The position numbers and the translations under genes are program-made. DNA of 64,000 nucleotides from Telopea speciosissima (taxonomy: Eukaryota > Streptophyta > Magnoliopsida > Proteales > Proteaceae), in the NCBI RefSeq assembly GCF_018873765.1, contig NC_057916.1, positions 12,707,501-12,771,500 on the forward strand. The letters run 5' to 3'. Positions 8,793 to 64,000 of this stretch are shown in pieces. Within the stretch, counting starts at the first letter, position 1, and each line of letters opens with the position of its first letter. The notes under the pieces were generated by a model. The model did not search any database and was not told the DNA's origin. It saw only the letters and a program-made list of their open reading frames with translations.

Positions 8793-8967
8793 AGAAAATT
8801 ATCACATCAATTTGCCTGCCCGTCCATTTCCTCAATTTCATCTAATAGAGGGGGTGGACCCCACCCGAGCTATGTGTTCGATAAAGGAGTAGAATGGTCA
8901 TTTTCACCCCTATATGAGATGAAATTGAGGAAATAGACGGGCAGGCAAATTGAAGGGATAAAGGTCT
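8793..8967. mobile_element. Foldback MITE, 'TTTATC' (MULE-like) group, copy 1
   Basis: Arms of about 50 bp are near-perfect inverted repeats. The left arm contains TCAATTTGCCTGCCCGTCC and the right arm its complement. Flanking 9-mers GTACCAAGA (8784-8792) and GTACTAACA (8968-8976) agree at 7 of 9 positions, which suits a Mutator-like 9-bp duplication. The loop contains AGAATGGTCATTTTCACCCC, a core shared with other foldbacks in this window. The arms match the element at 20390-20565. Confidence 0.75.
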
Positions 8968-9889
8968 GTACTAACAATACATTAGAAAATTTTGATTGAA
9001 GCTTAAACAAAATCTGGGCTCTGCGACCTAATTTGTAAATTTTTTAACAATATTGGCTAACATCTAGGCCATCTTTAATAATGTCGAAATAATGAAATAT
9101 GTGCAAAGAGAGAAAAATTAAATAAATATAATAAATATCTAAGGATGCAATATTATCTATAAGGTTAAACAAATAAAAATTAAGATCGAAATTTACAAAA
9201 TTTTATATAAAAATGCTCCATTTTGTTTCGATGTAAAATTTTACCTGAAAATTTTTAGTTCGAAAAAATTTACATGAATAATTTTACATGTTGAAAAAGT
9301 TTTTCCCATGTTTGTTTTTCAAAAAGTAAAGAGAGCTAAATTAAAAGAGTTTGAATATCAAGCTTTACAAACTTAATAAAGAGATTTTAATTCCACACCC
9401 AGTTGTAAGAATCTTATTAGGGATAACTACATGCACGACAAAAGCATTTAATGGGTTGTTGTCGAGATATTTTCTAGACATGTCCGTCTAGAGAACCTCT
9501 TTTTCATATTTTATTTCCAATAATTAATAGGAGCATGATGCATTGGGATTGGGAGTTGGTTACCAACTGGTGAATGTACATCTTATAGCAAATAACATTT
9601 TAATTGTGTTTCCATAAAAACCCCTCCTCCCCTTGTAAACGGCAGATATAAGATAGATGGTTGGCTCTCACATGTAAATTCACCTGTTGGTATGTGTAGA
9701 GGAATCGAACTCCTCAAAATAGACCACAATCGTTATCAAATATAAAACCACTCTTCATTTCAAAAGCCAAACATTGGATTAGAATTACATTACAGAAGCA
9801 CCCTTTTAAGGTTACCGGAAAAATTTTTATGAAATGTTTACTCACCATATGCTCATTTTAGGGAGAAAAGCGTAACATTAGTATATTCT

Positions 9890-10045
9890 CTTAAGGCTGG
9901 GGATCTAAAAATTGCTCTCATGTAATGGTATCTCACTATCTCCCATGCCAAGTTAACTAATGGGTGCATGGGAAGAGGTACCTCACATTTCATACGTAGG
10001 GGTCCACATGGTCAGGGAAGAGAGTGTGTGAAGAGAAAAGAGTTT
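9890..10045. repeat. Dispersed repeat remnant
   Basis: The segment 'atctcccatgcca ... ggggtccacatggtcaggga' is similar to 80-230 and, more weakly, to 15845-15960 and 63470-63560. The class of the repeat is not recognised. No terminal repeats are evident. Confidence 0.4.
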
Positions 10046-10388
10046 GTGATCGAGATCGCAACATGAAAGGAAACTATTGTGATGACAACAACCGTGGAGA
10101 AGGTATGAATGATCATTGTCCATGTCGTTGATCCATTAACTGCTTTGTAATAAGGGTGACCCAATTGTATTTCTAGAACCATTGACTTCAACTAGGACAT
10201 GCAATACTCACAATTAACTCTTATTATAATTATATATCTCAACCACCTGATCTATTATTTCACATCAATTTGGATTTTGAAGGATCCTAACCGGATGCCA
10301 AAGGAAAGAAACAAGGCAATTGTAGGAAATAGGAACCAGAAAGAGATTGGCCTTCTTATTTATTGCAGTATGTCCTTAAAAGATATAA

Positions 10389-10525
10389 GGGGTGCTGTTC
10401 TCTGTGCCGCAGCGTAGGCTATGCCCCAGGCACAAGGGATGGGTGCAATGATCACACTGACCCCCTGAATAGTAAACCTATGTGCCTGGACGCAGCCTAT
10501 GCTGCAGCATAAAGAACATTCTCCC
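10389..10525. mobile_element. 137-bp foldback MITE with perfect 9-bp target duplication
   Basis: Inverted arms begin GGGGTGCTGTTCTCTGTGCC and end with the complement of GGGAGAATGTTCTTTATGC. The element is flanked by AAGATATAA on both sides (10380-10388 and 10526-10534). It has the same length and arms as 22184-22320. The loop carries AATGATCACACTGACCCC, a diverged form of the shared loop core. Confidence 0.85.
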
Positions 10526-11526
10526 AAGATATAAATAGTTCAATCTCAAAGTGAGGAATGTATAACTCAACCTTTAATTGTGACCCATTATTGTGGCCCA
10601 CTTATTTTTTATTTAACATGCTCGAAATTTTGTTCACATTTATCATCTTTTATTCCTTCATAGTTCAATCCTTCCAGAAGGTGTTGAATCAATAAAGTGG
10701 GGTCACTGATTCTCCACGTGGGAAAAATTTTGTAATGGGTATTATAATAATGTTGCGAGAGATACTTGAAATTAATAAGCCAAACTGTTCAACCAATAAT
10801 AAGCTTTGTCAGTTGTCCCGCGAGCTTTGGGTATTGGTTGTTTTGCTCTAGTTTCTCATTTTTCAGTTTTGCCTTGATTGGTGATGTTTTAGCCCTTAAG
10901 CTTGGAGATCAGTTGGGATCCGGGCCATCCGGCTCCTCTCCAACGCACCTTTGAGTTGGACATCGTCTGGTACGGCAGCAGAAATAGACACATGACCAGG
11001 GTGTCGTTCAAACGGCGAAAACAGATGAAACACATATGAGCATGGTCCACATGCGATGGAGAAAAGAAATTTTTTAATTTTGAGATCCTCATTTTCAACT
11101 TGGGGGTGTCGTTTGATTACACTTAAATTCGCATGTCGACATTTGATATCATGCCAGACAATGTCCCGCTCGGGGGTGCGTTGGAGAGGAGTCGAATCCC
11201 TTCAGTTGACAATCAGAATTGGTTTTACTCAGTTTTCTATGAATTTTGATTGTCAAGTTTTGATTCATTATCTGTCAAATTCTAGAAATGGACCGTCGTC
11301 AAAGATTTTTGACATTGTCGCTAATATGTTGCTCCTTCAGACATGTTTTGATTTTATGTGTAATATTTGTAGGTCTGTCAATGTTGTGTCCCATTCTATC
11401 TATAAGTGGACTGTTTCTTACCCTTAAAAGTAGTTTATGGGTGTCCGATTGTGGATCTCCTCAATTTTTGCCCGATGTAACCTAATAAATTCCCCCTTTC
11501 TATTGGGGTCTTTGCACAAAACGAAG

Positions 11527-11664
11527 GGAAAATTTTCTCTAGGGGGTAGTTCACACTTAGACACAGGGGCAAAATGATTGCTCTGCCCCTAATGAAAGAC
11601 AGAAATCCCACCCTTGAGATACAAGCATGCGTAGCCCCTGCACTCTCCCGCAGAGAATTCTCAA
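11527..11664. mobile_element. Candidate foldback MITE
   Basis: Imperfect inverted ends (GGAAAATTTTCTCTAGGGGG against GAGAATTCTCTGCGGGAG on the other strand) enclose the loop core GGGCAAAATGATTGCTCTGC. No target duplication is visible. It resembles 63641-63783. Confidence 0.4.
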
Positions 11665-12849
11665 CCCCCACCTTCCCCCCCCCCCAACCCAAAAAAAAAA
11701 TAACAATAAAATTTTGAAGGCACAACGACTACATCTTTCACACAAAGCCTTCCCTTACCCCTTCCCAAAAAAAAAAATATATATATATATATATATAATA
11801 AAATGAAGCAATTGGTTTCATGTGTCATCAGTAAAAGAGAAGCACAAAACGTTTTATTGGCACTTGTTGCCACGGAACACCAATAATGTTTGGGCATTGC
11901 ATAACATTTTAAGGGTGTTAATCGGGTGATTCAGTTTGGTTTTGGTGAGACTGAATCGATTTTAGGTATGTAGTAAGTTAAAAATCAAGGCCGAACCATT
12001 TTAAAGTGGTGCAGCAGTTTTTTAGTCTGATTTGGTTAGAGTTTTCTATCGGTTTTGCTTTATGGGTTCCTATCAGTCTAATACCAGTTTTAGTCCTGTT
12101 TGATAGAACACTGCTTTTTATTAGTTTTTCTTGGTTTGATCAGATTTCTGGTTCGACCGTTCGGGTTCAATTTCAGTCAGTCTATTTTGTCAAGTGAAGT
12201 ATGAACTTCCCCTTCCCCCACTCTACCCCAATTATCAAAGAATATTGAAAGATGATGGCATAAAAGATGTCGATGGAAACCTAATAAGATGGTGCATGAA
12301 AATATAGAAGATATCTAAATCAAGATAAGTAGAGCCTCGTTTCTTTTCATTTATACAATGACATTCTACAAAGAGATTAGAAGCAAGATTTATTTCACAA
12401 TCATAGCAATGATAGTTGTTCATAATATATTCATAAAATGTAATTGTGTTGAGAATGTTGTCATCTTTTATTTTTTGTACAAAGGAATCCTTTAGGTCAA
12501 AGACTATACGATGGTACCTTTACATGATTCTATGACCTAATCATATCATATCATATTATCATACTGTTATATAAAAGTATGAACTATTTTTTAATAGTTT
12601 GGTATACTTTTTTCACTTGACAAATTTTTCATAATATAAATTTTCTTCTTTAAACCCCGCTCCCAAAAATCCCTCTCCTTATCTTGTTTTATATGCAAAA
12701 TTTAAATTTTAATAGAAAATATCTAATGCAAATCGATCTGTATTTTTCCATCTCTTCTCTCTCCTATTGTCAAATGTGCATGGGTTTTCAATCAATACAC
12801 CAACACAACTAATAGGCTATACAGGTGGAGGAAGAGAGGAGAGGGAGAG

Positions 12850-13019
12850 GCGTTGAGTTCCTCTGTAGCGCGAGAGGTAGTGTAGTGCACATCCAACGAC
12901 TCACAGTGCTTGGGCATGCAGCCCAACACCCCGCTTGTGTGTTGGGCTACGTGCCCAAACACTGTGGACCATCGGATGGTGCACTACAAACCCTGTCGCG
13001 CTACAGAAGACCCAAATCC
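12850..13019. mobile_element. 170-bp foldback MITE with perfect 9-bp target duplication
   Basis: Long inverted arms share TCTGTAGCGCGA, GTAGTGCAC, CAGTG and TTGGGC segments in mirrored order. The flanking duplication GAGGGAGAG (12841-12849 and 13020-13028) is exact. The element is non-coding. The 9-bp duplication indicates Mutator-like transposition. Confidence 0.8.
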
Positions 13020-13157
13020 GAGGGAGAGAGCATAAATACCCAAAAAACTCTAATGCTTGAATGGTCTAGCGATAGACTCAGGCACTCCATAGTGATAGAT
13101 GGGGCCTAACTCCTCAAACATATAAACTCAAAACTATTCTATTGACAATAGACTAAG

Positions 13158-13298
13158 GGATCTTTATCTCCTCTAGTTCTCTGTCCAACCCAATTCCCCA
13201 GTTCCTCAAACATGGGGGGCTGAAATGACCACCCTACCCCACTACTGGAGGAGCTGAGGAACTGGGACGGGCAGGGAACTGGAAGAGATAATTTTCCG
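13158..13298. mobile_element. 141-bp foldback MITE, 'TTTATC' group, perfect 9-bp duplication
   Basis: The ends are GGATCTTTATCTCC and, on the other strand, CGGAAAATTATCTC. Target copies TAGACTAAG lie at 13149-13157 and 13299-13307. The loop contains TGAAATGACCACCCTACCCC, the reverse complement of the shared loop core. Confidence 0.85.
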
Positions 13299-14481
13299 TA
13301 GACTAAGTCATTGTTAGAGGATTTGAGATGAGCACTCCATAATGTATGGCGGGACCTTACTTAAATATGCCAACTCAAACTATCCCATTGAGGAACATGG
13401 TTGCCTTTTTTGATAATAAATGTTATATTGATTACTTTGCTCTTTTGAAAGCTTAACAAATTGAACCGAGTTTTCCTTTAACCATGGTGAATAGATCACC
13501 GAGGTGGGTTTTGATGTCCGCAAAGGTATAGGGGTATTTTGGTGAACATACTAAAACCCTATAGGGTTCATGATGGTGGTTAAATAACTAAACATTCATT
13601 GAGCGGTGGAGGAAAACTTTGTCGTAGCAATTTTATCTATGATATTTAACAATATAAGTTCTTTAGCATAATTAGATTAAATATTAGAAGAATCACTCAA
13701 TTCAATTGCATTAATTCTCCAACTATATATCACATCATGTTTTTCTTGTAAGAATTTTCATAACCTTTTGTAAAACATAAAACAAGGGGCTTCCATGTGA
13801 GAGTGAAAATATTTCTATTAATGTATAGTATAAATTTGGGAAAAGTTTCACAGTCAAGAAAGGAATCTATTTGACACTTATTTTCCACATGGATGGGTGG
13901 TTCAGTAATTCCAACTATTGAATATCTAATGAATGGTTTGGATTATTCCACATGGATGGGCGATATGTATAACTTTTAGAAATTAATTTTCAAAGGTTGA
14001 TTTTATGACTTGGTCCAACTCTATTTGTGTTGAGAATTGACATTTGAGCAGATGACCTTGGGTTCATTTAAGACAGAGAGCTTTATTTTGACTTTGAACT
14101 AAATCAGTTAATTACAAATGAAGAAGAGGATCAGTTCTATATCTTGTAATAGAACTTATGCTTGTTAGGGTTTACATATTCGTAAATTTTGACCTATCTA
14201 ACCACCATAAATTAGGTTAGAGATAGATTAGGTATGAATAAACTCATGGTATCTCTTTTGTAATTAACTCCTCTGTAGTACTTATAAATATTTGTAGGGA
14301 GAGAGAACCCTATCACCTGGGCATGTGCTGTACGCTGTCCATGCGTCCAAGTAGCATTTTTTCTTCCATATTTATATGATTAATTTGCATTCAAATATGC
14401 TTTGGTTCGTGTATTATGATGCCATTGCGTGAGGTGCAAAGAAAACTAATTGGCGAACATATAAAGATGTTTTAATTATTT

Positions 14482-14875
14482 TAGGAGTGTCAAAATGCAA
14501 TCCAAACCGGCTGGACCGATTGTAACCAAATGAGAAATAAACAAAGAGAAAACGAATCAAACTGAACTGATTCTCTTATCGATTATATTTGGTTTGGGGT
14601 GTTTTGAAAGTATACAAAATGAAATCACCGGCCGGACCAATCGAAACTGAAAAACTAAATAAAACAAAACAAATTGTTTTTTTTTTCCCCCTTTTTGCAT
14701 TAGTTTTTTACACTTATAAATCGAAATTGAATGGCAACAACCCAATAATGGACCGATAAATACTTATTAAGCCAACTTGATCAAAACCCAATACTGAATA
14801 TGAATCTCACTTATGACTAAACCGTTTGGCTCCAATTTAGACCAATTGACATCGGATCGACCGTTTGACATCCTA
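14482..14875. mobile_element. 394-bp hAT-type MITE, 'TAGGGGTGTCAA' family
   Basis: The left end is TAGGAGTGTCAAAATG and the right end TTTGACATCCTA. Flanking 8-mers AATTATTT (14474-14481) and ACTTATTT (14876-14883) match at 7 of 8 positions. Its length agrees with 55444-55835 (392 bp) and with 61435-62071 once the SINE in that copy is removed. Confidence 0.8.
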
Positions 14876-15419
14876 ACTTATTTTATAAAAAATAAATAAA
14901 TGAAAGCAAAGATGTGGAACCCACTCTTCCTATAAGCTCCCCACTATCTCCATGAACAAATGCAGTCATACGCTGCCATTTTTTTCCAACTTTGAAATGA
15001 TTTTTCTTGGATTAGGTGCTGATGTCTTCATCACTTCTTTCCTATTCAACCAACCAATGATCAAATAATGTTAATATACATCTATCCCCCCCCCCCCTCC
15101 CAAAAAAAAAAAAAAAAAAAAAAATATAGATATCACCATTATAAGAAAGACAATGGTATCTTTCTAATTTTTTTGATAACTAACAACAATAGCAATAACT
15201 AGTAACAATAGCCTGCAAATGATCTCCTTTGAGGGTTATGTATTATTTTTCTTGGTTGGTGATCTCTGTCAAAAAAAAAAAAAAATTTTTTTTTTGCATT
15301 TAGTTTTGATCAATTAGTGTAGTCTAGGCACCCTAGATATTGAGAAAGAGAGGGATAGGTTCTAAATGATAGGTGGGGAATCACTTCATAGAATAGGGAA
15401 ATATCTATGCTATACATAA

Positions 15420-16305
15420 TTTTTATCACATTGTAAGTTAGATGTGACTGAAATTTTGCGGATAAGTAGTAGGTTTTCCCTCCTTGTATGTCAAGTTTCA
15501 ACCCAAATGGATTGACCAAGTGGTTCAATAGAGTTTTGAAAAATCCAAGGTTATAGAAAGGTGCAGTTAAAAATTACCGGGACCCATGGCTATACAAGGG
15601 AGGGTATTTGATTGAAATCGAACATGGAATTTGATATTTGGCCTATTGAAAGTAATTTCAATATATATCCAATGGTTAGAATTAACATATTATCCTTCTC
15701 CAAGCACAATAAGGTGTGTAGAGCATATAATCATATGTCTTTGATCAGATGATACAAAATGTGATGGATAACATTGGCATCATGAAGATCATAAGATATT
15801 TCCTTGTTTAATTGACCATTTTCTTAATCTTCAATATTTCTTTCATGGGGGAGAGTTCCCCACGAAACAAATTCATGTAGTATGAATCTCCCACGACACC
15901 AATGGCATCACGTGGGACAATATCATCAGTAAGGATACACAAGAGTCAGAGATGAGAGATAAAGTAAATGAATAAAAAATTCATATAAGAAGGTATACAT
16001 TAAGTGGATATGTTTATTGTCACGTGGCAAGTCATATGTGGTTAAAATTTTGTGGACAAGTAGACCTAAGTTCTTATTTCTCACATGTCAAGATTCAAAC
16101 CAAATAAATCTAATCAAAATCAAAATAGAACTTTGAAAAATCCACGACAGCATTGACATGCACGAAATGATGTTTTATTATTGAATTTGAGTTTAAACTT
16201 TAACACATGACATATCCATATAATTTCGAATCTAATAATCAAAATTGCATATCATCCTTCCACATAGTACAAATATGTGGAGAGCATATAACATCTTAGA
16301 CTCTA
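15420..16305 (+). repeat. Pair of diverged direct repeats about 600 bp apart
   Basis: Segment 15420-15755 and segment 16018-16305 share an ordered series of blocks: 'attttg.ggataagtag', 'atgtcaag.ttcaa', 'ttgaaaaatcca', 'catattatccttc' and 'gagcatataa'. The two copies are strongly diverged. The nature of the repeat is unknown. Confidence 0.55.
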
Positions 16306-16810
16306 AACTTTTGCCATTAATTAATTATTGGGTCTGTAAATTTTGTATTAGGCCTTAAGCCTATCGCTTTTATGGATGTTAAATACTTCTTTTGAAGGTG
16401 TTAATTATTGATTTAATTGAAATTTGCCGAAAGTACAGACAATTATTAGTTATTAGTCGCCGTTCACCGCAAGAGGAAACGAAAGATTAGGGACAAAGAT
16501 GGTGGGCCGGGAAACTGGCCCACGAGTTTATATGGCTGAAGTTAGTAATTTGGAAAATCTGAACTGACGGCCCAGCCAAGTCAAAGCTGCCGTCGCCGTC
16601 TATGACGAATTGACGATACAATCTAAGATCCCAATGAGAGGCAATGACCCAATCTCATGTGGGGTCAGGATCAGGGAATTTAACATTTTAACTCCAACCC
16701 CCCCCTCCCCACTCCCCAGTCCCCACACACTTGGAGGGGAAAAACACGTGCAAATTGCAACTGAAACAAAATCCGGAAAAGTGGCCTATCTCTACACTGA
16801 TTTTTTTGTC

Positions 16811-16960
16811 ACGGGCAGAGCGGTCTGAGCGGCACACATACAGGTCGCCTTGTAATGATCCTCTTGCCCCTGCCCAAGCATCTTGCCTGAGTGGGGGTAA
16901 GATGGTCATTGCTGAGTGCCCAGTTTGTGCACCGCTCTGGGCAGGGCGCCGTAGACGATC
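16811..16960. mobile_element. Candidate foldback MITE upstream of the MAGL-like gene
   Basis: Inverted segments GGGCAGAGCGGT (left) and ACCGCTCTGGGCAGG (right) enclose GGTAAGATGGTCATTGCTG, a variant of the shared loop core. I could not find a target duplication, so the ends are approximate. Confidence 0.45.
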
Positions 16961-17221
16961 TCGATTGATTTTCTACCTACTTCAAGATGATAATCCCGGT
17001 TCACTTTACCAAAAGATTATCCAACCCGCACCGGCCAATCCAGTTTCAAATCCACTCACCCCTCTGTCCTCGCCACTTCCGCGGATATAGGTATGGCAGT
17101 AGCCGTTATTACTTATCAGTTATCTATATTAAGGACCAATGGAACCTTCATTGTCGGACCCGGACCTTATCAGTCCAGCCGAGACCCATAAGGCCTATAA
17201 CCTCTCTCTCTTGGGTTACCC

Positions 17222-17232
17222 TATATATATAA
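17222..17232 (+). promoter_or_regulatory. Possible TATA box of the MAGL-like gene
   Basis: The sequence TATATATATAA lies about 200 bp before the start codon, followed by a pyrimidine-rich leader (about 17260-17433). The position suits a core promoter. It is inferred only from sequence. Confidence 0.45.
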
Positions 17233-17433
17233 GTCTATAACATCAAGCCTTAACGCGTTTCCTAATCCCACTCCTCCTTTCCCGCTTGCATATTTTTTAT
17301 TTCCTTATCATCATCTATTTTTTTACCCTTTTTAATCTATAAAACTTGACTTGGGTGCTCTGCATCCATCGTCTCTTTTTATTTCTCTTCAATTCCCCTG
17401 TTTCTGAGGCGACTCTTCTTCTTCTTCTTCTCC

Positions 17434-20386
17434 ATGGTCAGATTCCTTACCCTCCCCAAACCCCTGCTTTGTGTTCTACTGCTTTCTGTCTTAACTATCT
17501 AATTTCTGTTTTTCCTTTTTCTTTTCTTATTTTTAAATTTACAGGCGCTTGAGACTGGAAGTATCAGATTCGAAGAGGTAATTTATTTGCTTTTCTGATT
17601 CAAGGGTATATTTCTGTTGTTCTTTCTGATCAAGTAATGGTAAGTGATTGGTTTTCTCTTCTTCTCCATAAAACTGCAGGAATTTATATTGAACTCTCGA
17701 GGATTTAAACTTTACACATGCAGATGGCTCCCTGGAAATACAGAACCAAAAGCCTTAATCTTTCTCTGTCATGGTATATCCTTGATCACCAGCTGTTGTT
17801 CCAGAATTACTCTGTTTTTCCATAGATTAGTCTTAATTTATTTCTGTCATTGTTTCTCCTTATGATCATAGGTTATGCCATGGAGTGCAGCATCTCCATG
17901 AAAGGTAAATGGAATAAACTCAACCTTCTTCTTAATGGCTTGATTCATATTTAAATTAAGAACAGAAAAAGAAAGTTAAAAGGGTTTTTGAATCTCTAAT
18001 GCAGGAACTGGAATTCGACTTGCAATGGAAGGTTTTGCAGTGTATGGGATTGATTATGAGGGCCATGGGAAATCAGATGGGTTGGAAGCCTATATCCCTT
18101 TCTTTGATGATCTTGTCAATGACTGTTCCAGCTATTTTACGAGCATAAGTGGTCAGATTAAATTTCTTCTCTCCTTCCACTCTTCTCTTTCAAAATTATT
18201 CATTAAAATCAATGTTGTAAGTTATTATAAACTAAACAAGGAGCAACTTGCTTTCCCATTACAGAGAAGACAGAGAACAAAAGAAAATTGAGATTTCTAT
18301 TGGGAGAATCAATGGGTGGAGCAGTGGCTCTTCTCTTGCACCAAAACAAGCCAGACTATTGGGATGGTGCAGTCTTGGTTGCTCCCATGTGTAAGGTGTG
18401 CCTCAATCTCATCACATGATTCACATCTCCTTTGTGTTTTCTCTTCTTTGTAGTTTCTATTAGAGTTTTTTTTCTTTCTTTTTTTCTTCTGGGTTTTTCA
18501 AGGTAAACTATTAATTGGTTTTCTTTCTATTGTGAGTTACAGATAGCAGATGATATGAAACCTCATCCATTGGTTCTTAGTGGATTGGCTAAGCTTTCCA
18601 AAATCATTCCCAAATGGAAAATCATCCCAACTAAAGATATAATTGATCTCGCCATTAAAGAACAAGAAAGGAGAGATGAGGTAGTGTACATATATCTGAA
18701 CAGATAAATATAAAATCTATGATTTTTGCTTTAATGACACTTTGATTAGGGCAAATTAATCAATAAGTAACCAACTTAAGGGGTTTATGGTATTTGGTTT
18801 ATTAATAATGTGTTGACTCCTTCTCTCAGGTTCGCTCAAACCCTTTGTGTTACAAGGGAAAGCCACGCCTAAAAACTGGCTCTGAGCTTCTCAGGGTCAG
18901 CTTAGAATTGGAAAAGAATCTTTACCAGGTCAGTTTTCACTTACCCAGTTAGTTTTATACTTTCAATCTTTATTATTTTATATTTTTTTTTCTGTCTTGA
19001 TTTAAAGTATTGTTTAGTAATCAAATTAATCTTTCATTATCATATGACAACTATCATATATAAACTATCTTTATATAAAGTTAAAAGCAAGTTTTTATTT
19101 TAATTTAACGGTTAGCATTCTTTCTCCCTATCAAATATAAAGTTTTATCTTTAATATAATATAACTAATAAGGTCAATAATGGATATAAAAGTCTTGGTC
19201 ATATCACATCCCTAATAAAGTATATGATGTTAGTGTTCTATATTATATATATTTTGGTCACATCTTTTTTGTCATTTATTCTTATTTACGTTTTTTAATG
19301 TTTAATGGTTACATCCACTAAGATTGCGAAGGAATCGGCCTACCCGTTTTTTCCTCTTTTTTCTAGTTAGTAAAATAGCAGAAAATCAATGAAAATTTAA
19401 AAAAAAAAATTAAAATAAAAAGCTCCCCCCAAAAAAAAAGATTTAAGATATGTGGAAATATTTGCTTCTCTACATGGTTTAATTTTCTAGGGGTATGGTA
19501 ACTCCAATTTGATTCAAATCATACTTGATGGAGACTGATTCCAATTTGATTTGAATCAAAATCGATGGAGACTGATCCCATGTTTGGTTACAAGCTTTAA
19601 AATTTGAGGAGTCTTGAATTCAAATCGAAACCAATGGAGACTGATCCCATGTCCAATTCTGAGTTTTGAAAACTTTGGAGTCCCGAGTATAAGTTGCATT
19701 GAACATCCCGTCCCATGTCCTCTCACATAATGAGTCAGGATACCTTCTACCAAAAAAAATGAGCCAGGATGCATGCCCACATTGACACATTTTATCTTCA
19801 AATGAAACTTAGTTATCAAGGCGTCGCCTCGGCGTCCAGGCTCAGTCTAGTTGGGCGCCTTGCCGCCATGGCGGTGTCGACTTGATTTTTGACCCTCTAA
19901 AACGCCATGCTCGCCTTCTTGCCTTGACAACTATGAAATTAAATATAAATTTTCTACTAAATGAAAAAAATCTTCATCTCTTTAATTGTTGTGATTTTCT
20001 ACTATGGCATCATGGGAAACCTCTACTACCCTTTAATTATTATATGCTTACGTGAATGCACGTAACTGGCACAGGTGTCATTACCTTTTCTAATAGTGCA
20101 CGGAGGCGACGACAAAGTAACGGATCCGTCCATAAGTAAATTGCTATACGAGTCTGCAGCAAGCGAAGACAAGAGCTTCAAGTTGTATCCAGGGATGTGC
20201 CATGCCCTAACATCAGGTGAACCTGTTGATAACATCAACCTCGTCTTCACCGACATTATCGACTGGTTGGATCACAGAACAACACCTGGGACGACGACCT
20301 CCAAATGGGAAACAGAGCAGAAGGCTCAATTTGATGACCCTCACATTCATGCTCTCCAAGGCAAGAAAATGCTTGTAGACCCTTAA
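17434..20386 (+). CDS. Monoacylglycerol lipase-like alpha/beta hydrolase, nine exons
   Basis: This is a serine hydrolase of the plant MAGL/caffeoylshikimate-esterase family. It probably cleaves monoacylglycerols or lysophospholipids, but the substrate cannot be read from sequence. Exons: 17434-17436 (ATG only), 17545-17577, 17680-17773, 17872-17904, 18005-18151, 18265-18395, 18543-18680, 18830-18928 and 20075-20386. Together they make 990 nt and 329 residues, with every phase consistent and GT-AG borders. The N-terminus MALETGSIRFEE resembles Arabidopsis MAGLs. Visible motifs are CHGYAMECS (oxyanion region, about 42-50), YEGHGKSDG (72-80), the nucleophile elbow GESMGG with Ser119, DDKVTD with Asp239, and GMCHAL with His269; this triad is complete. 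There is no signal peptide or membrane segment. Intron 8 (1.1 kb) contains a tandem repeat and a MITE. A foldback MITE begins 3 bp after the stop codon and would lie in the 3' untranslated region. Confidence 0.92.
19500..19690 (+). repeat. Imperfect tandem repeat in MAGL intron 8
   Basis: The phrase 'atggagactgatyccatgt' recurs about every 55-70 bp near 19527, 19565 and 19633, each followed by a variable 'gaattcaaatc'-like segment. It is non-coding. Confidence 0.5.
19810..19932. mobile_element. hAT-like MITE, 'AGTTGTCAAGGC' family
   Basis: The element runs from AGTTATCAAGGCGTCGCC to GCCTTGACAACT, with a GC-rich 'gcgcc' interior unlike its surroundings. Flanking 8-mers ATGAAACT (19802-19809) and ATGAAATT (19933-19940) match at 7 of 8 positions. 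It lies in MAGL intron 8. Confidence 0.65.
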
Positions 20387-20389
20387 GTT

Positions 20390-20565
20390 TGGAAAATTAT
20401 CACCTCAATTTGTCTGCCCGTCAATATCCTCAGTTCCATCTAATAGAGGGAGGTGGATCCCGCCCAGGCAGTGTGTTTGGGCAGGGGGTAGGGTGGTCAT
20501 TTCTGCCCCCTATTAGATGGAATTGAGGAAATTGAGGGGCAGGCAAATTGAGGGGATAAAGATCC
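20390..20565. mobile_element. Foldback MITE, 'TTTATC' group, copy 2, at the MAGL stop codon
   Basis: Arms of about 50 bp (TCAATTTGTCTGCCCGTC and its mirror) match the element at 8793-8967. The loop holds GGGTGGTCATTTCTGCCCC and, before it, GGCAGTGTGTTTGGGCA. Flanking 9-mers CCTTAAGTT (20381-20389) and TCTTAAATC agree at 6 of 9 positions; both contain the stop triplet TAA. It starts 3 bp after the stop codon, so the transcript would contain the hairpin. Confidence 0.75.
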
Positions 20566-20952
20566 TCTTAAATCCACATTTAAGTGAAGAACTAGTGATA
20601 GAAAAGCCTAAAAAAAGGGAAAAAAACCAGAGGATTGCAGCTCCCCATGCCCACATTGTAGATTAGGTTCATTTTCCATCCATGGTTGAAACTTTGAAAG
20701 GAATGAGGACCATCCAATAAATCTCTAAATGTATTTTAATGAAAAGAGTTGTCTTTTAGAATTTCTTGTACCTTTTAAACACAATTGTATTCCCGGTAAC
20801 CTACAAAGCTCCTGCCAAATCAATTCAAATTTACAGCATTATAAAAATCGTGAGATATGCAGTTTCTTTAGGATCTGCTCAGTTAAACTTAAAAGCCAAG
20901 GAAATTAAAATTCGCAAGTTTAATTTGATTGAAGACATTTTGAAGACATTTT

Positions 20953-20980
20953 GAGAGAGAGCGAGAGAGAGAGAGAGAGG
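20953..20980. repeat. GA microsatellite
   Basis: A run of GA dinucleotides with one interruption. No function is suggested. Confidence 0.8.
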
Positions 20981-21213
20981 GGTAACGTGCTTGTGTCCCC
21001 TATTATTTAACGGGAAAAAGCTCCTCACAGAGTGTGCTTAGTCCTCTGATGGGGCATTTTTCATTCATTTTCTCTCCTCACTGACCATTGTGGGCCCCTT
21101 TCGAAATCGTCTCACGCGTAATGTGGCATGTGAGATTCCTTCTACACGGCAGGGTGGGAACCCAACCATTGTTTAATTATCAGAAAAGATTCTCTGAACC
21201 ACAGGGGTAGGAT

Positions 21214-21352
21214 GAATTTTTATCTGTTGTAACTGGAGCGCTGCTGTGTGCATCGTGCGGCGCAACAGCGGCCATGTGTGTATAGCGGATCCCACTGTGC
21301 ACACATGGCCACTGCTACGCCGCATGATGCGCACAGCAGCACATAAAGGTCC
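21214..21352. mobile_element. 139-bp foldback MITE with exact 10-bp flanking repeat
   Basis: The ends GAATTTTTATCTG and, on the other strand, GGACCTTTATGTG enclose GC-rich arms (GCTGCTGTGTGCATCGTGCG and its mirror). GGGGTAGGAT lies on both sides (21204-21213 and 21353-21362). The end motif belongs to the same 'TTTATC' group as neighbouring elements, but the arms are unrelated to theirs. Confidence 0.8.
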
Positions 21353-21412
21353 GGGGTAGGATACACTAGCATCTTTATGTTTACCTCTCTCCTTACATGA
21401 AATGACCTAGTA

Positions 21413-21582
21413 GGATTTTTATCGTCCCAGTGCGGTGCATTATCCAGTGCACCACCCTTGAGAATCCAACCATTAAACCATGGGCAGTGATGTGTTTTTA
21501 TCTTCGCAAGTGTTGGTTTAATGGTTGGATTCTCAAGTGTGGTGCACTGGACAGTGTACCGCACTGGGGGCGATAAAAATCC
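21413..21582. mobile_element. 170-bp foldback MITE, 'TTTATC' group
   Basis: The element runs from GGATTTTTATCG to CGATAAAAATCC, with arms of about 68 bp that are close to perfect inverted repeats (GAGAATCCAACCATTAAACC and its mirror). Flanking 9-mers GACCTAGTA (21404-21412) and AAACTAGTA (21583-21591) match at 7 of 9 positions. It is a strong hairpin if transcribed. Confidence 0.8.
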
Positions 21583-22183
21583 AAACTAGTACCCCAGTGT
21601 CTTCCTCGCATGAAATGACTTAGCTGCCATCCAAATATGGTACCATAATATTGCACCTTATCGATGTGCACTTTTATGTCACTTGCTCAAAGGACACTCT
21701 CCTTTTGATTATTATAATTATAATGACAATATAAATCAAGTTGTAAAAGTTTAAAACCAAGACAAGTGATAACTGTACCCGAATAATCCCCAATGCTTCA
21801 TAAGGATTATTATTCATTTAATTGTACGATCTTTAATTAGAAGCGTGAACTATATATATATTAGTCAATTGTTCAAGACCTAATTAAAATAACATCAAAT
21901 GGTTAGTCAATTGCTCAAGACCCAAATTAAAATTGCGTCAAATGGTTAAACTAAATAAAGGGAAAAACAATGATACATGGTGGCGTAGCTCCTATGCACA
22001 AATGCATGAGCACGTAAAAGTACCACATCTATGTTGATGCCTTTGAAATTAGTAATCGCATCTATGTTGATGTCCCTGCGTGCACTCTAATTGGCCCCTG
22101 CACTGGTGCAGACACTACACAACCAGACAATGATTCATGTGTTTAGAGGGGAGTATGGGATGGGATAGTCCGATATGTAAAGA

Positions 22184-22320
22184 GGGGTGCTGTTCTCTAT
22201 GCCGCAGCGCAGCCTGCGCCTAGGCACATGGGGGTGGGTGTAATGACCACCCTGCCCCCCTGCACAGGCTGCCCATGTGCCTAGGCGCAGACTGCGCTAT
22301 GGCACAAAGAACATTCTCCC
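22184..22320. mobile_element. 137-bp foldback MITE, second copy of the 10389 family
   Basis: It has the same length and terminal arms as 10389-10525. Flanking 9-mers ATGTAAAGA (22175-22183) and ATGTAAAGG (22321-22329) match at 8 of 9 positions. The loop contains AATGACCACCCTGCCCC, the shared core in reverse orientation. Confidence 0.85.
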
Positions 22321-22539
22321 ATGTAAAGGCATAGAAAAAAAAGGATAAAATGAGAGTAAATTCACTGTAATATCAATGCTAGCCCTTGGGGAAAGAGAAA
22401 GAGACGGGAAAGTAGATGTCATCAAAAAAAAAAACAAAAAACTAAGAGCGAATTAAGCCCAAAACCGAACCAGGAAACAACTCCACAAGCTACAAAGCAA
22501 GCGTTAGCGCTTAGATGAGATGATATCCCAAGTTCCTCC

Positions 22540-26454: not shown

Positions 26455-26638
26455 GAATTTTTATCCTCTGTTGTCTGTTGCCCAAAAAGCATGCTGTCCC
26501 CTCACATGGGCGTGAATGATGATTTAATCACCCCTTGGGCAGTGTGTTCGGGCAAAGTGCTTAAATCGTCCTTTTTCTTCCATGTGAGTGGACAGCACTT
26601 TGCTGTCCAGATAGTGGACAGTAGAGGATAACGATTCC
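26455..26638. mobile_element. 184-bp foldback MITE, 'TTTATC' group
   Basis: The ends are GAATTTTTATCCTCTGTTG and, on the other strand, GGAATCGTTATCCTCTACTG. Flanking 9-mers GATCAAGTA (26446-26454) and GACCAAATA (26639-26647) agree at 7 of 9 positions. The loop holds GGGCAGTGTGTTCGGGCA, almost the same as in the unrelated-arm element at 20390. Confidence 0.75.
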
Positions 26639-44022: not shown

Positions 44023-44095
44023 GGGGATGTAGCTCACATGGTAGAGCGCTCGCTTTGCATGCGAGAGGTACGGGGTTCGATACCCCGCATCTCCA
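44023..44095 (+). tRNA. tRNA-Ala (anticodon UGC)
   Basis: A complete 73-nt cloverleaf. The acceptor stem pairs GGGGATG with CATCTCC (one G-U pair) and the discriminator is A. The anticodon stem pairs CTCGC with GCGAG around TTTGCAT (anticodon TGC). The A box TAGCTCACATGG and B box GGTTCGATACC are intact. There is no intron and no encoded CCA. Confidence 0.95.
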
Positions 44096-45823: not shown

Positions 45824-45829
45824 ATGATG

Positions 45830-48847: not shown

Positions 48848-49083
48848 GAATTTGGATCCTTTGCAGTCTGCGCTCAATTCACAGGCCACCTCGTAGAATT
48901 AATGTTGATCCAATGGTTGGTAGATGGTGGTCTGACATTTTTTTTTAATTTTGAGTAAAAATTTTGAATTTTGAATTGTCGTCATCTATCAACCATTGGA
49001 TCAGCATTAATTCCACGTGACGACCTATGAGTTGAGCGCAGCACGATGGCCGTTCAACTCCAAGCCGTAGAGGATCCAAATCC
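48848..49083. mobile_element. 236-bp foldback MITE upstream of the PPR gene
   Basis: The ends are GAATTTGGATCC and GGATCCAAATCC. The arms of about 80-100 bp include 'ctgcgctcaa', 'attaatgttgatccaatggt' and their mirrors. Flanking 9-mers TTCTTCACC (48839-48847) and TTCTCCATC (49084-49092) match at 7 of 9 positions. Confidence 0.75.
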
Positions 49084-49099: not shown

Positions 49100-50560
49100 T
49101 GGTGCGCTCCCCCTATGCCGCTTGTTATCTAATATGAACTATCAAACAATTCATGATTCCCCTTCTTGAGTTAATTTTTTCTGCCATGAGTATCAATATC
49201 TAGCTGTACCGATTGGCTAAACATAAAACCAGCCGACAAATATGTAAAATTGGTCCAGTTTCAGTATGGGCTCTATATACTTTTGATGTTCAATCAGCCT
49301 CGATCTGGGTCGGTTAATCTGAAGAGGGACCCGAATGAATTAAACCAAAAATACTGAACCTGAACGAATTGAAAATAAACCGTAAGAAACCAAAAATTGT
49401 GATTCAATCTAAGGTCTCCTGACTCTTCATGTGATTCACCAAAAAAAATTAGGTCTCCTGACTTTTCAAACGATTTACAGCTTTTAATCCAGGTCTTAAT
49501 CTTGGGCCAGGTCCATTCATATATGGACCTTTGAGTCCACAGTTTCTACATGTGAGCCAAACCTTTATTTGATTTGGAGACTGGATATAGGATTAATTAA
49601 AGCCTTATTGGCCTGAGGATCGAGCCTTGATCTAATGGAATATCATTTTCAGTCTGGGCAACTTTAGTACCAAAACCTTGCCTCAAATGATTGTATAACT
49701 AACTTCAAAATATTCTAAATAAGATTATAAAATTATTTTAACAATCAAATCCTTTTGATTTGAAAAATAAAATAAATATTACATCTGAAAACTATAATTA
49801 TCAAATCTTGTAAGAATTTTAAGTAGTTTATACAATCATGATTATAAATCTTTTTTTTTTTGTTTCTTTTCAAAACTGATTTTAATTCCCTTCTTTTACT
49901 TTTACTTAAAACCAGAAGGAGCCAATATGTTGGTCTAAAAAGAGGGTACAGTGATGATTCATTTGCTAGAACCAAAAGTGACAATTTTGCAAGATGGGGA
50001 TCCCATAAAAACTTTTCAAGAAGTGCGATAGAATAGATCATTTCTTAATAACAATAGTGAAGGGCCCTGAGAGTACTTAATGTTTTGATGCATAGAAATA
50101 TATACCCAGTTTGGGGAGAGTCTGATCTTGGTCCCAAACACCCATTCAAGTGCAGTAATGGCCATCGGTGGAGGAAATAACTCAAGGAACAATCAGTCCA
50201 TTTAACATTATAGATAGGCAAAAGTTTTCATTCTCTAATGGAGAAGAAAGAATCCCCCCTCCACTGGTGATTTGACCTTGTGATTGAATCAAAAACTCCT
50301 CTCCCTAATCCAATCAAACAGAATCAATGCCAATGGTGAGGGAATTCCTCCTTCAATATGGGTGAAGGAAAACTCAGTCCTTTAAAAGTCTGTACGTTGG
50401 AATCTTGTCGTTTGTTCGATTTTCTTTAGACATGGAAGATTCAAATCATTATTTTATTTATTCCCGTCTACATTGATATACCTCATTTCAATACATGTAC
50501 GTATTCATATCCACCTACATACTTAGAGAAAGAAAAGGAGAGGAGAAAACCACTAATTGT
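49100..50560. other. Gene-free stretch before the TRM-like gene
   Basis: About 49190-49420 carries 'accgattggc ... aaccgtaag' sequence typical of decayed hAT-type MITEs, without clear ends. I see nothing in the rest. Confidence 0.4.
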
Positions 50561-50569
50561 GACTACTCT

Positions 50570-59500: not shown

Positions 59501-60146
59501 GTTACCCATTAATTTCATTCGTAACCGAGCTATTGTTGAACATGCTGAAGAAGAAGAAGAACAGAGACGGGAAAGGATCTTTCTGACATCAAGTAATATT
59601 TATAGAAAATGGCAGGCCGAAATCAAGTGCAAATCGGAACCATACCAGACAAATAAATAACAGAACGGTTAAAAGATATAAAAGCAGAACATGAAGCAAA
59701 ACGTTCACCCGGGAGAATACCAAATAAAAAACACTCGCCATTGCCAACAAAAAGCAGAAAAGCAAAGAAAGAAAAAAAAAATCTAAAGGAAGCCCACATC
59801 ACTGTTATGATACCTCATTATAACCTCCAAACTCTTCCATTGAAGAGAGACATAATCATGCGAATAGCACCATAGGAAAAAATCAAATACAGATATCATT
59901 CGAAGCAAAACCTACTTTTCTCAAAACAGAATAATACCAACATCAATAAGTAAAAAAAAAAAAAAAAAGAAGGAAATTCAACCTTAAAATAACGCCACAG
60001 CTGCACATATGAGGAAAGGAAAGGAAGAAAAAAGCCCTAGAAGCCATGGCAACCGTTGTCTGACCTTCTGACGAGAGGTTTCTGATCTTTGCTGCATATC
60101 CGTGTGAAGGTCTCTCCCGACCATGCCACCTCTGAAATCCCTCCAT
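50570..60146 (-). CDS. TRM-family protein (DUF3741 and DUF4378), five exons
   Basis: TON1-recruiting-motif-like proteins associate with cortical microtubules and influence cell shape and division planes; the role here is inferred from family only. Exons on the minus strand: 60146-60065, 59291-59203, 59021-57036, 51474-51288 and 51201-50570. They make 2976 nt and 991 residues with matching phases. Seen features are [18 protein letters not shown] (the conserved N-terminal motif of the family), then a DUF3741-like segment [19 protein letters not shown] and [17 protein letters not shown], long Ser-rich disordered stretches, and a C-terminal DUF4378 ([20 protein letters not shown] and following, ending [12 protein letters not shown]). 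The first exon is least certain: another ATG exon at 59519-59507 also fits the phase. Intron 3 (5.6 kb) is filled with nested transposons. A GA-rich leader and the promoter lie beyond 60150. Confidence 0.85.
52537..55408. mobile_element. PIF/Harbinger-like non-autonomous element, 2.9 kb, in TRM intron 3
   Basis: An exact 23-bp inverted repeat, containing ATCTTTGGTATCATTTATG, starts at 52540 and is mirrored at 55382-55404. TTA lies on both sides (52534-52536 and 55409-55411). A sub-terminal copy 'ggtttggtatcatttatgaa' lies at about 52594 and a partial mirror near 55250. No transposase is recognised. A 5'-truncated LINE inserted inside (53573-54312). The outermost 3 bases of the two ends differ, so the assignment is tentative. 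Confidence 0.6.
53573..54312 (+). mobile_element. 5'-truncated RTE-like LINE with perfect 15-bp target duplication
   Basis: Translation in several frames gives [20 protein letters not shown], a [13 protein letters not shown]-like segment, [11 protein letters not shown] and [17 protein letters not shown], the reverse-transcriptase tail of plant RTE-type LINEs. The 3' end has the 'tagccaaccccactaagttg' motif and TTG repeats. The flanks carry AGAGAGTGGAATAAG exactly (53558-53572 and 54313-54327). The frame is broken, but the duplication is intact. Confidence 0.85.
55419..56175 (+). mobile_element. RTE-like LINE 3' fragment interrupted by a MITE
   Basis: It begins EIRMLRWM and, after the MITE at 55444-55835, continues with the rest of the tail: '[10 protein letters not shown]', [13 protein letters not shown] and [20 protein letters not shown]. 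It ends with 'gccgaccccattttgttgag'. It is related to 53573-54312 but more diverged. No target duplication was found. Confidence 0.7.
55444..55835. mobile_element. 392-bp hAT-type MITE nested in LINE, perfect 8-bp duplication
   Basis: The ends are AAAGTGTGTCAATCGG and GGTTTTGACACCCTTA (imperfect inverted repeats). GATGGATG lies on both sides (55436-55443 and 55836-55843). The interior is 'cggttcggtttcggtt' low-complexity sequence. It belongs to the 14482 and 61435 family. Confidence 0.85.
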
Positions 60147-60149
60147 ATT

Positions 60150-61150
60150 CACGCATAAAAAGCCAAAATCTCGATCTCAGTACACGAACATAAATCTTAA
60201 ATCCCGGAAGAGTAACACGACGATTTGTCGTGGAGAATGAAGGAAGGATCCCAGAAAATCATACTCAGAAACCTCAGCTTTTCTATCTTATGTTATCTTA
60301 AAAAAGAACTGCGATATAAAATTGTTTCTATGCGTGTCTGATCTGAGAAACGCACGGATCGGAACCAAGTCGTGTTGGCTTCGCAAAGGAAAGAATGTGC
60401 GAGAGAACAAAGAAGAGAAGCTCCAAAAATGGCAAGAAAAAAAGGAAGAAAGATAGTTGAAGCTCTGGTTCCCAAACTGTAACGCAACGGCGGACATTAA
60501 TGTCTCTCCTGACGATCTCGACCCAGATCTTTCGGCTTTCACTCCTCCTTTACATCACTACCTCAGCTATTAACAACTGGATAACCTGAGAAATGAGAAT
60601 GGAGAGAGAGTGAGAGAGAGATACAGAGTTTTTTGAACTTTCAAATACCGATTTTCTGACACCAACCTGACCCTTGCGCGGGCTAATGCCCTAATCCACG
60701 CGGCGCTTCTCTAATGGATCACGTATTTAATGATCTTCCTTATTCTCAAATTAATTGACTATAATGTCCTTTCGTTAAATAAAGTAGGTTATTACCACCG
60801 TACATGTGGATGTCCATCAAGACTGATTGTCTCCGTTAAGGTCTCTCCGTTACATTGGATCTTGTCCCCGTATCACACATTTGAAAATGACAGTATCTAA
60901 ATACGTGTTTAATGGCGTGGGCCTGGGTTAACGACAACTCGGCCCATCATGCGTGAAGTATACGAAAGCATGGGACCCACTGGATAGTTCCCGTTTAACA
61001 ACAACAAATAAGCTCTGATGCTTTCCTCTATCACATCAATTTAAAGCAATATCCCTAAGTTTTAACTTTAACCATTCGTATCATCACATAATCTAACGCC
61101 CTTTAATTAATACCAATTGAAACAGTAGGGTTATAAGGTAGGGTCTTCAT
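60150..61150. other. Promoter side of the TRM-like gene and gene-free flank
   Basis: About 60150-60640 is the likely leader and core promoter of the minus-strand TRM-like gene, including a GA-rich stretch near 60600-60630. The remaining sequence to 61150 shows no recognised feature. Confidence 0.4.
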
Positions 61151-61154
61151 GATT

Positions 61155-61395
61155 CGAGGTCGGTATCGTATCGGACAATACATTTCAGTTTTACTAGTCA
61201 CTGATCTTGATACTGTATCAATATTGTATCGATAAAATAGAACAAACAAAAGATAAATTAGTGAGGAAAAAAATAAAAAGCATGGAAAATCAGGGCAAAT
61301 TTTGTCTATTACGATGAATTCATGCCGACATTATATTGATATTGTATTGGTTTTGCAACTGATCAATACCCGATCCAATACCTTGCACTAAAAGC
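61155..61395 (+). repeat. 'TATCGGTATCG' dispersed repeat
   Basis: Sequence such as 'tattggttttgcaactgatc' and 'caatacccgatccaatac' closely follows 24140-24210. Related decayed material lies near 26640-26710. The element ends were not determined. Confidence 0.5.
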
Positions 61396-61434
61396 ACGAG
61401 GGTCTTCTTAAAATGAGTCTCGAATCCCAAGGAG

Positions 61435-62071
61435 TAGGGGGTGTCAAATTTCAGCTAAAATTGGCATCGATGATCAAAACCAACCAATTCCAACCAGATC
61501 AAATCGAACCAAACTCTATTTAGGGGTCGATCCAAGGCTTGCCCTGGTGGTTCGCTACTCCCTTGGGAGAACTGCGTCAGGCGCTTGATCGGTGGTTCAA
61601 ATCTCCTTAGCGACACCTAATCCACATTTAATTGCTTTCCAAGAAGTGGAGTCTTTGGGTACCATATTTGACCCCTTGTGGGTCCCCTCGTTGTCTCCTT
61701 GTGGGGTCCTGTTAAGGTTGATGGCCAGTGGGCCCTTGAATTGCACCCCCAAAAAAAAAAAAAACTCTATTCAGGGGTTAGTTTCTATCTGGGCTCTTAC
61801 AAAACCAATAGAAATTGAAAACGCTCCAATAGAAAACCACATTGAACCCAATAAATACTGGGAAAATCTAAAAAATCAATACAAATTGTACTTTTTCAAT
61901 CGAACTAATAGCAACCCATTAACCAAATCTGATATATACCCGAAATTGAACTGGATTGAAACCGATACTTTTCTTGTTGGGCAGGCTTTGGTTTAACCCA
62001 ATTAAGAATTGAGAACGAAGACTGATTCAACTTGATCAAAATCGAACCAAACCAACCGATTGATAACCCTA
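61435..62071. mobile_element. hAT-type MITE containing a nested SINE
   Basis: It runs from TAGGGGGTGTCAAATTTC to GATTGATAACCCTA, with flanking 8-mers CCAAGGAG (61427-61434) and CGAAGGAG (62072-62079) that match at 7 of 8 positions. Subtracting the SINE and one copy of its target duplication leaves about 386 bp, the size of its relatives at 14482 (394 bp) and 55444 (392 bp). Confidence 0.8.
61528..61761 (+). mobile_element. tRNA-derived SINE, long form, with 17-bp target duplication
   Basis: The head reads CCAAGGCTTGCCCTGGTGG, GCTACTCCCTTGGGAG and the B-box-like GGTGGTTCAAATCTCC. A body of about 120 bp follows, then GTTGATGGCC and CCCTTGAATTGCAC and an A tail. It is flanked by AAACTCTATTTAGGGGT (61511-61527) and the same 17-mer with one mismatch (61762-61778). 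The shorter relative at 36714-36843 lacks the middle. I do not recognise a named family. Confidence 0.8.
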
Positions 62072-62484
62072 CGAAGGAGAGTCAGCTCTTCCCATATATG
62101 TGATATGTAGATTTTAATACTTATCACACTTGTGAGTGCCATTCGGCAAACACGTGGCCTAATTTAAATACATATATTTGGCAATTAATATTTCGTTTCT
62201 ATTACCCTCTTGAGGTGGGAACCCATCTATTTTTTTGCTTGTAAATTGATTTGGTAAGATAGATTATTATGGAGGTACAAATGGAGCCACCTATGTTAAC
62301 AAACTCAGAAGAATTGTGCTTTTTAAATTTAACACACAAAAATGATGCCAAAAATATGTATTGAAATTTTGAAAAATTGTTTTTCTGACACTTTATTAGC
62401 ATAATTAAAGGATAGACGATTTGATCATTTTAATCAACGAATATATGAAGTTAAAATGAATGTATAAGGTGCAAATTTATCACA

Positions 62485-62860
62485 TCTGTAGCTGAAATTA
62501 GGATGTTGAGATGGATGAGTGGTAAAATTAAAAAAGATAAAATAAAGAATGAACAAATCAGAGTTAATTTAGGAATAGCTCCGATACATGGTAAGTTGCG
62601 AGAAAATCGTTTGAGCTGGTTTGGACATGTATAATGGAGGCTTTTGATTGCTCCAGCAGGGAAGGGTGATTTATTTAGATTGAGAGAAATTAAAGAGTCA
62701 CAGTAGACCCAAATTGATTCTAAGAGAAGTGATGTAAGAAAATAAATGCATAGCTTAGGACTCATAACAAGTAAGACTTTGAATAGAGCCGATTGTAAAA
62801 CCAGGATCCATATAACCGAACCCATTTAGTTGAGGAAGATGTGTAAAGTTTTGTTGAGTT
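62485..62860 (+). mobile_element. RTE-like LINE 3' fragment
   Basis: The sequence reads [20 protein letters not shown], then IRVNLGIAPIHGKLRENRLSW and FGHV, with breaks after that. The tail 'ccgaacccatttagttgag' matches the other RTE-like copies. No target duplication was found. Confidence 0.7.
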
Positions 62861-62944
62861 GTAATCACCACATCATTCTATGTATCCTTCCCAAGTCCCA
62901 AACATGTGATACACTCTGGCAAAAATCTACGGTCATGTACCAGG

Positions 62945-63045
62945 GCTTGTAGAGTGGTTTGGCGCAATGGTAAGTTGACACATTGTCTTAGATGAAAGAG
63001 CTCAAGACTCACCATTTGTTAAATCATAGTTTTTTTTTTTTTCCT
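62945..63045 (+). mobile_element. Possible tRNA-derived SINE head
   Basis: 'tggtttggcgcaatggtaag' resembles an A box, and 'gctcaagactcacc' could be a decayed B box. A T run follows. The evidence is weak, and the resemblance may be chance. Confidence 0.3.
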
Positions 63046-64000
63046 GCCTTTCTTGATGCCCCTTTGACATCACAACTCAAAAGAGTTTTTAAGTTGAAAA
63101 ATCAACTTGATCATGTGATCGTTGCTTAACAAGGGGAAAGGGGAAGCATATTCCTGGCCATAAGGTCATTCAAAGAAAGAAATTTGATAAAGACCAAGTT
63201 TCCCTTCAACCATAGACTTTGATCCTTAGATTAGATTGAGAAAGAGTATTTTCGGTTTCATATAATAGGGTTGGGAGCTAATGATGACTTCAAAATTCAA
63301 TTACATTGTCACCTCGCCAACGGTGAAGGAAAACTTAATCTAGTAAAGCATAATTAAATTACAAATTAATCAAATAGCAAATAATCATCAAGTCAAGTTG
63401 AATTTTTATTTAAATTGACTATGACGTATTTTTTTTTTTATCTAATTAGATGATTCCTCATGATGCAAGTGTGGGGGATTCTCTCACGCTACACCAATGG
63501 CGACACAGAGAACGATATCATGCATATGAGATCCACATGGTCAAGAGAAGAACAAAATAATAATAAAAGACCCATATGAGAGAGCAATAGTGCACAAGCG
63601 ACGTGGGGATTAAGATTAAACTAGAATTGACACACTTTTTGTTTTTGGAGAAAAGTTCTCTACAGAGGAGTGTAACGATCATGCATAGACACAAATGGGG
63701 TGAAATGGCCGCTCCGTCCCCATGATACCAACGCGCTCTCTCGGTGACCCCAAGTGCAGGGCCACGTTCCCCACAGAGAATGCAGGCCCATTTTTTTGTT
63801 ATATTGAAAGAAATGAATTTAGGCAAATTTCACAAAATCTATAGGAAAATCATTCATGATAAACCAAAAGCAGGTCAACCAGCTACTCCTTTGCTTTTGT
63901 TTGTCCAATTAAGCAAATGTAACCTATCATGAAAATCACAATGGTGGGGCCGTTGGGGCAAGTCTTTTCTACACTATTACCAAATCCAACTGGCCCAATC
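63046..64000. other. Gene-free end of the window
   Basis: No gene was recognised. A candidate foldback element (63641-63783) and a dispersed-repeat remnant near 63470-63560 are the only structures noted. Confidence 0.45.
63641..63783. mobile_element. Candidate foldback MITE
   Basis: Imperfect inverted ends (GAGAAAAGTTCTCTACAGAG against GCATTCTCTGTGGGGAA on the other strand) enclose GGGGTGAAATGGCCGCTCC, a diverged version of the shared loop core. No target duplication was found. Confidence 0.4.

Follow-up and report, generated by a model that had tools for sequence, protein, structure and literature searches.

Foldback elements of the window

We examined a window of 64,000 nucleotides (C1:12707501-12771500, the whole stretch of DNA analysed) from an 823-Mb plant genome, whose sequences C1-C11 measure 57-88 Mb each and which contains PPR, dirigent and DUF4378 plant genes, and describe in it a group of short, non-coding foldback elements (120-190 bp) with a common core motif in their loops. 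Nine elements had been named in a sequence-only reading of the window and are designated here by the start positions used there. Seven of the nine fold beyond shuffled sequences and are near-complete inverted repeats (8793, 10389, 13158, 20390, 22184 and 26455 at z -4.3 to -12.6, 16811 at z -2.8). Elements 11527 (z -1.3) and 63641 (z +0.4) showed no fold beyond shuffles and were dropped as foldbacks. The only stop-to-stop frame of at least 130 aa over a listed element is 16692-17090, which overlaps the element at 16800-16960.

The elements were sorted into five families. Family F1 is represented by 8793 (8793-8967, ends AGAAAATTATC and GATAAAGGTCT, head at 8859-8909, subfamily C-like by eye), whose arms match those of 20390, by 20390 itself (20391-20565, subfamily C, ends GGAAAATTATC and GATAAAGATCC, head at 20459-20509, exact core at 20491-20509), and by 13158 (13158-13297), which joins through its BLAST relatives and subfamily E and lacks part of the loop that its relatives have. 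Family F2 comprises 10389 (10389-10525, core at 3 mismatches) and 22184 (22184-22320, exact core AATGACCACCCTGCCCC), and F4 is the family of 26455 (26455-26637, end GAATCGTTATCC, apex phrase GGGCAGTGTGTTCGGGCA, head at 26529-26575, core degenerate). Element 16811 (16800-16960) is of the F5 type, with the core on both sides of its apex, one end F5-like by eye and the other degenerate. The two elements that do not fold constitute F3: 11527 (11526-11680) has short inverted ends GGGAAAATTTTCTC and GAGAATTCTC and a single core near one of them, and 63641 (63640-63790), placed by eye, has a GGAGAAAAGTTCTCT end and a degenerate core.

As a 19-mer, the core occurs exactly at 20491(+) and with 1 mismatch at 13216(-), that is, twice at ≤3 mismatches against 0.01 expected, with weaker copies at 22234(-, 4 mismatches) and 8892(+, 5 mismatches); elements 10389 and 16811 each hold a version 3 mismatches from AATGACCACCCTGCCCC. 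The proposed loop core does recur in foldbacks whose arms differ; 11527 and 63641, to which it had been ascribed more loosely, do not fold. A second loop phrase, said to be common to 26455 and 20390, was found in both (exactly at C1:12734037 in 26455, with 2 mismatches in 20390), and the arms of these two reach only z ≤2.3 when compared. The 9-bp target duplications attributed to several elements were borne out for 13158 (TAGACTAAG, 9/9) and 10389 (AAGATATAA, 9/9), with an 8-bp one at 22184 (ATGTAAAG, 8/8), but none was detected at ≤1 mismatch at 8793, 20390, 26455 or 11527; 16811 has one at 1 mismatch and 63641 a T-rich 8/8. Over the window, an exact duplication of 8-9 bp flanks 3 of 10 elements, to which the T-rich 8-mer may be added.

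The shared head and its genome-wide distribution

The core is part of a palindromic head of 55-90 bp. Each near-palindrome is built of three zones, namely the ends (GGAAAATTATC, GAATCGTTATCC, GGATCCTCTAC or GGGAGAATGTTCTC), arms of ~25-50 bp and the central head, which has the complete or partial layout AATGACC-ACCTTACCCC-TGCCCGAACACAC-TGCCCGGGTGGGGTAAGGTGGTCATT; in the foldback consensuses the core starts ~57-68 bp from the element end. The centres of F1, F4 and F5 align as one sequence (AATGAYC-ACCTTACCCC, the apex TGCCCRAACACAC-TGCCC and an inverted partner); the partner is complete in F4, F5 and the F1 relative L068 and degenerate in the F1 consensuses. Head homology extends across arm groups, as seen in F1D-F2a (z 8.6, ~60 bp), F1D-F4 (z 15.2) and F2b-F3 (z 10.2), F3 being represented in all comparisons by three single sequences. 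A head profile trained on ten heads, none of them F2 but including 16811, and with window copies contributing to some training consensuses, matched six of the nine named elements at E ≤4e-4 (20459-20509, 16850-16898, 26529-26575, 13216-13240, 8859-8909 and 22236-22275). The independent match among these is the F2 element 22184 (22236-22275, E 3e-4); the profile gave no match at E ≤1 in 10389, 11527 or 63641.

Searched genome-wide at ≤3 mismatches, the 19-mer occurs at 5824 places (reversed control, 37). The overlapping sets obtained with other words are similarly enriched: the exact 18-mer AAATGACCACCCTACCCC at 1187 places (control 0), AATGAYCNNNCTGCCCC at 2422 (control 5), an arm word of 22184 at ≤1 mismatch at 2420 (control 0) and the phrase GGGCAGTGTGTTCGGGCA at 422 (control 0). 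In the window and 60 loci, a search that ignored the core detected 117 foldbacks, of which 23 contain it at ≤4 mismatches, compared with 10 among 410 random pieces and four among 585 shuffled foldbacks; this foldback sample is not random, as its flanks lie ≤1.5 kb from a core copy, and it counts four foldbacks twice because L060 and L061 overlap the window. Inverted pairs of the 18-mer lie 42-49 bp apart at C1:19318413/19318462 and C1:50224167/50224209 and presumably mark elements whose apex is flanked by two cores. By eye, an LTR-like (long terminal repeat) non-foldback repeat carries AATGACCATTCTGCCCC at six loci (L148, L149, L150, L152, L155 and L156; L150 reads AATGATCATT...), and its likeness to the core may reflect chance or common origin.

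All 40 F1 loci fetched at exact core places are of the TTATC..CTCC type by eye, two of them half elements. A set of 50 extracted F1 elements, which excludes 17 of the 40 loci L001-L040 as well as the window elements 8793 and 13158, contains one arm cluster of 36 elements, and arm words divide the family into subfamilies A-E; six elements without a subfamily word were omitted from the arm, head, symmetry and tempo comparisons. The 30 loci chosen by AATGAYCNNNCTGCCCC comprised 22 F2 and five F3 elements, one uncertain and two others by eye. F5 was first met among foldbacks selected without the core. Its head has 2264 genome places at ≤3 mismatches (control 0), and at all 40 fetched loci the head, with its core, lies within an alignable inverted repeat; 28 were sorted by eye into five arm subfamilies (F5a-e) and 12 were assigned to none. 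In the F5a consensus (from the L165-L204 set) the left core reads AATGTCC and the right AATGACC, so that the head is asymmetric while the arms are symmetric.

The systematic count of target duplications covers F1: 26 of 50 distinct elements are flanked by a 9-mer duplication at ≤1 mismatch, nine of them exact, whereas swapped flanks average 0.18 (exact 0.02). An earlier count had used 63 end pairs, including several pairs per element and both orientations. Domains of Mutator-like elements (MULEs) are abundant in the genome; out of 828 candidates, 150 were scored and all 150 exceeded the cut-off.

Divergence and symmetry of the arms

Direct comparison of the window arms in 21 pairs gave clear similarity for 8793-20390 (z 12.5) and 10389-22184 (z 5.3), the rest reaching z ≤2.3; among the latter, 13158 scored z 2.1 (p 0.035) against 20390 and z 0.5 against 8793. 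With ends and centre removed, the consensuses of the F1 subfamilies resemble one another (z 2.0-6.1), and F2 arms show no similarity to F1 or F4 (z ≤1.0). In an arm network of 13 consensuses (78 comparisons, ambiguous sites and G-runs masked, using 7 of 8 fetched F4 copies, 13 of 14 F5a and 4 of 5 F5b), five components stand apart at p<6e-4 and three at p<0.005, and all merge only at p<0.01. The groups at p<0.005 are {F1A-E}, {F4, F5a-e} and {F2a, F2b}, with within-group alignments such as F1A-F1C (z 10.4), F1B-F1E (z 9.0), F5a-F5b (z 8.4), F5b-F5c (z 6.8) and F4-F5a (z 4.7). F2b arms weakly resemble those of F4 and F5a, b, c and e (p 0.0065-0.016, comparisons not independent), and this, with a weak F1C-F5d similarity, leaves room for a common descent of the arms. 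Arm groups that do not resemble each other were therefore found around one head, three in number and fewer than the sequence-only reading had supposed; 8793, 20390 and, by way of subfamily E, 13158 are all F1, and 26455 and 16811 lie near the single group F4/F5. The genome sample yielded neither many unrelated arm families nor a secure single ancestor.

Between F1 subfamily consensuses the inner arms differ at 16.7% and 21.0% of sites and the loop outside the search pattern at 10.7%, so that the arms diverge 1.6-2 times more than the loop; copies differ from their own consensus by 7.7% and 8.0% in the inner arms and by 12.5% in the same part of the loop (CpG sites excluded, subfamily-defining arm words trimmed from the arms, consensus pairs non-independent). 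The resulting between/within ratios are 2.16 and 2.64 for the arms and 0.86 for the loop, and the loop ratio fell under both arms in 98 of 100 bootstraps. Fast decay in copies combined with low divergence between subfamilies indicates that the loop is unprotected in copies and held in sources. The left and right arm consensuses differ at 1-6 of 40-49 sites in each of the five F1 subfamilies, which differ from one another at 18.6% and 21.5% in this comparison. Near-complementary arms in every F1 subfamily indicate that both arms change together.

Head homology, arm divergence, arm symmetry and ~9-bp duplications are thus all observed. Short symmetric replacements do occur: L096:1811-1992 and L206:1830-1977 have retained F1 ends and the F1 head, wholly or in part, but carry another inner arm on either side. 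A search for hybrids, confined to the orientation F1-left/core/F2-right, returned 28 matches, none of them hybrid as judged on the first 80 letters printed. The earlier idea of a module with exchanged arms is in part supported, being right in miniature and open at large.

Origin of the arm families

We consider it somewhat more probable than the alternatives together (about 0.54) that the elements are one lineage of non-autonomous, Mutator-type foldback miniature inverted-repeat transposable elements (MITEs), in which head and ends are kept for mobility and the arms are turned over symmetrically. A Mutator-type transposase would move the elements in trans and, by analogy with MURA, would require ends and head, and source copies would consequently retain both. 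The arms would act as a spacer whose sequence is free while both sides remain complementary. A change in one arm would pass to the other at the making of a source copy, through template switching or hairpin-templated repair, and the arms would drift, sometimes losing or gaining a segment on both sides together, until groups stop aligning. More specifically, and tentatively, the palindromic head might itself be a functional module, serving as a transposase site or as the start of a hairpin, with the arms around it rewritten on both sides alike, one segment at a time, at the birth of a source copy; one head could then generate an open-ended range of arm families. How the arms came to differ is explained only in part.

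Several results weigh against the single-lineage reading. The three arm groups are insecurely joined by links at p<0.01, a level at which ~0.8 false links are expected in 78 comparisons, and F1 and F2 arms show no similarity in 10 of 10 comparisons (p 0.55-0.96). An unmasked network had joined all 13 consensuses at p<0.005 and was rejected for leaning in part on an artificial G-run in F5c. The ends of F2 resemble those of F1 or F4 at the 0.05 level in just 3 of 12 comparisons (0.001, 0.008 and 0.029), the core is lost in some elements (L206:1830-1977, L054:1596-1747), and the bootstrap ranges of the tempo ratios overlap (loop 0.67-2.14, left arm 1.89-3.13). A test for correction of arms in situ gave no excess of mirrored private changes in single copies (7 against a crude 49; without F5, 5 against 15), so that the step that makes the arms symmetric would precede or accompany amplification; template switching, hairpin repair or selection in favour of symmetric sources would be candidates for it. 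Finally, the two MULE loci read contained no autonomous partner and no inverted repeat around the frame. These loci had been spotted by eye at distances of 3.6 and 4.1 kb from listed elements; given the partial lists, chance alone would yield roughly 0.2-0.3 such pairs.

Whole-arm replacement by recombination or capture, with head and ends retained and the new arm then mirrored, is a rather unlikely alternative that would account for three insecurely linked arm groups around one head, for the ~55 bp of centre that F1 and F2 have in common between arms without similarity, and for the inner arms swapped on both sides in the two elements described above. An F5 outer arm, 'a', also pairs with two inner types, but many of these typings are uncertain and we do not rely on them. 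The pieces observed to be replaced are short, the one hybrid orientation searched yielded no hybrid, and the weak similarity of F2b to F4 and F5 arms also weighs against replacement. That independent foldback families gained the core separately, by convergence or capture, would fit its occurrence in the LTR-like repeat (6 of 20 loci by eye) and the lack of links between arm groups at strict thresholds; we regard it as very improbable, since the similarity of the centres extends over 50-60 bp, beyond the core. Equally improbable is retention of the head by the host for a regulatory or small-RNA function: no other internal part is conserved as well as the head between F1 subfamilies, but the faster decay of the loop than of the inner arms in single copies indicates that copies are unprotected. 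Target duplications of 8-10 bp are not restricted to Mutator, and no transposase with these ends was seen in the two loci read, so the same anatomy might belong to another cut-and-paste superfamily; the ~9-bp duplications and the abundance of MULE domains make this improbable too.

MITE families are commonly sorted by their inverted ends and arms. Applied here, this practice would break up thousands of copies that belong to one lineage by their head, and it is the centre that is informative. The elements resemble Mutator-like MITEs and non-autonomous plant MULEs in being non-coding, in high copy number, in ~9-bp duplications, in inverted ends and in the expected trans-acting transposase, but differ in that the internal head, more than the inverted arms, is conserved from one subfamily to another, and in that head and arms form one palindrome. 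PMC3310237 reports binding of MURA to a conserved ~32-bp motif in Mutator terminal inverted repeats (TIRs) and names an internal motif as the most conserved part in one family; compared with the long TIRs described there, the motif found here lies at the foldback centre. Drosophila Foldback4 is palindromic and non-autonomous, with insertions, deletions and substitutions of domains; PMC2955051 gives it palindromic termini of >400 bp as the main shared part and a variable internal part, whereas the present elements (120-190 bp) have a common centre and variable arms. The title of PMC3169594 groups a foldback family of root-knot nematodes, Tm1, with Mutator. Among open-licence PMC papers on modular or palindromic Mutator MITEs we found no description of this head, and the core letters occurred in open-licence PMC text in one zebrafish paper, unrelated judging by its title. 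The families form a natural data set in which both arms of a palindrome change together around a constant centre, a situation for which models of template switching and of hairpin repair offer predictions.

Some other foldbacks in the window are free of the core. A near-perfect one at 21412-21585 (174 bp, DNA fold z -17.8) resembles F1 at one end, GGATTTTTATCG, but is headless, so that such ends can occur without the head. Three more strong foldbacks, with arms of other types, lie at 12859-13010, 21240-21340 and 48868-49041. A separate family of small core-free palindromes with GCTAAACGGATACGGA or a similar sequence is found at 2783-2887, L053:459-563, L064:2014-2118 and L096:2651-2761. The window also contains two tRNA genes, at 1305-1378 and 44023-44095.

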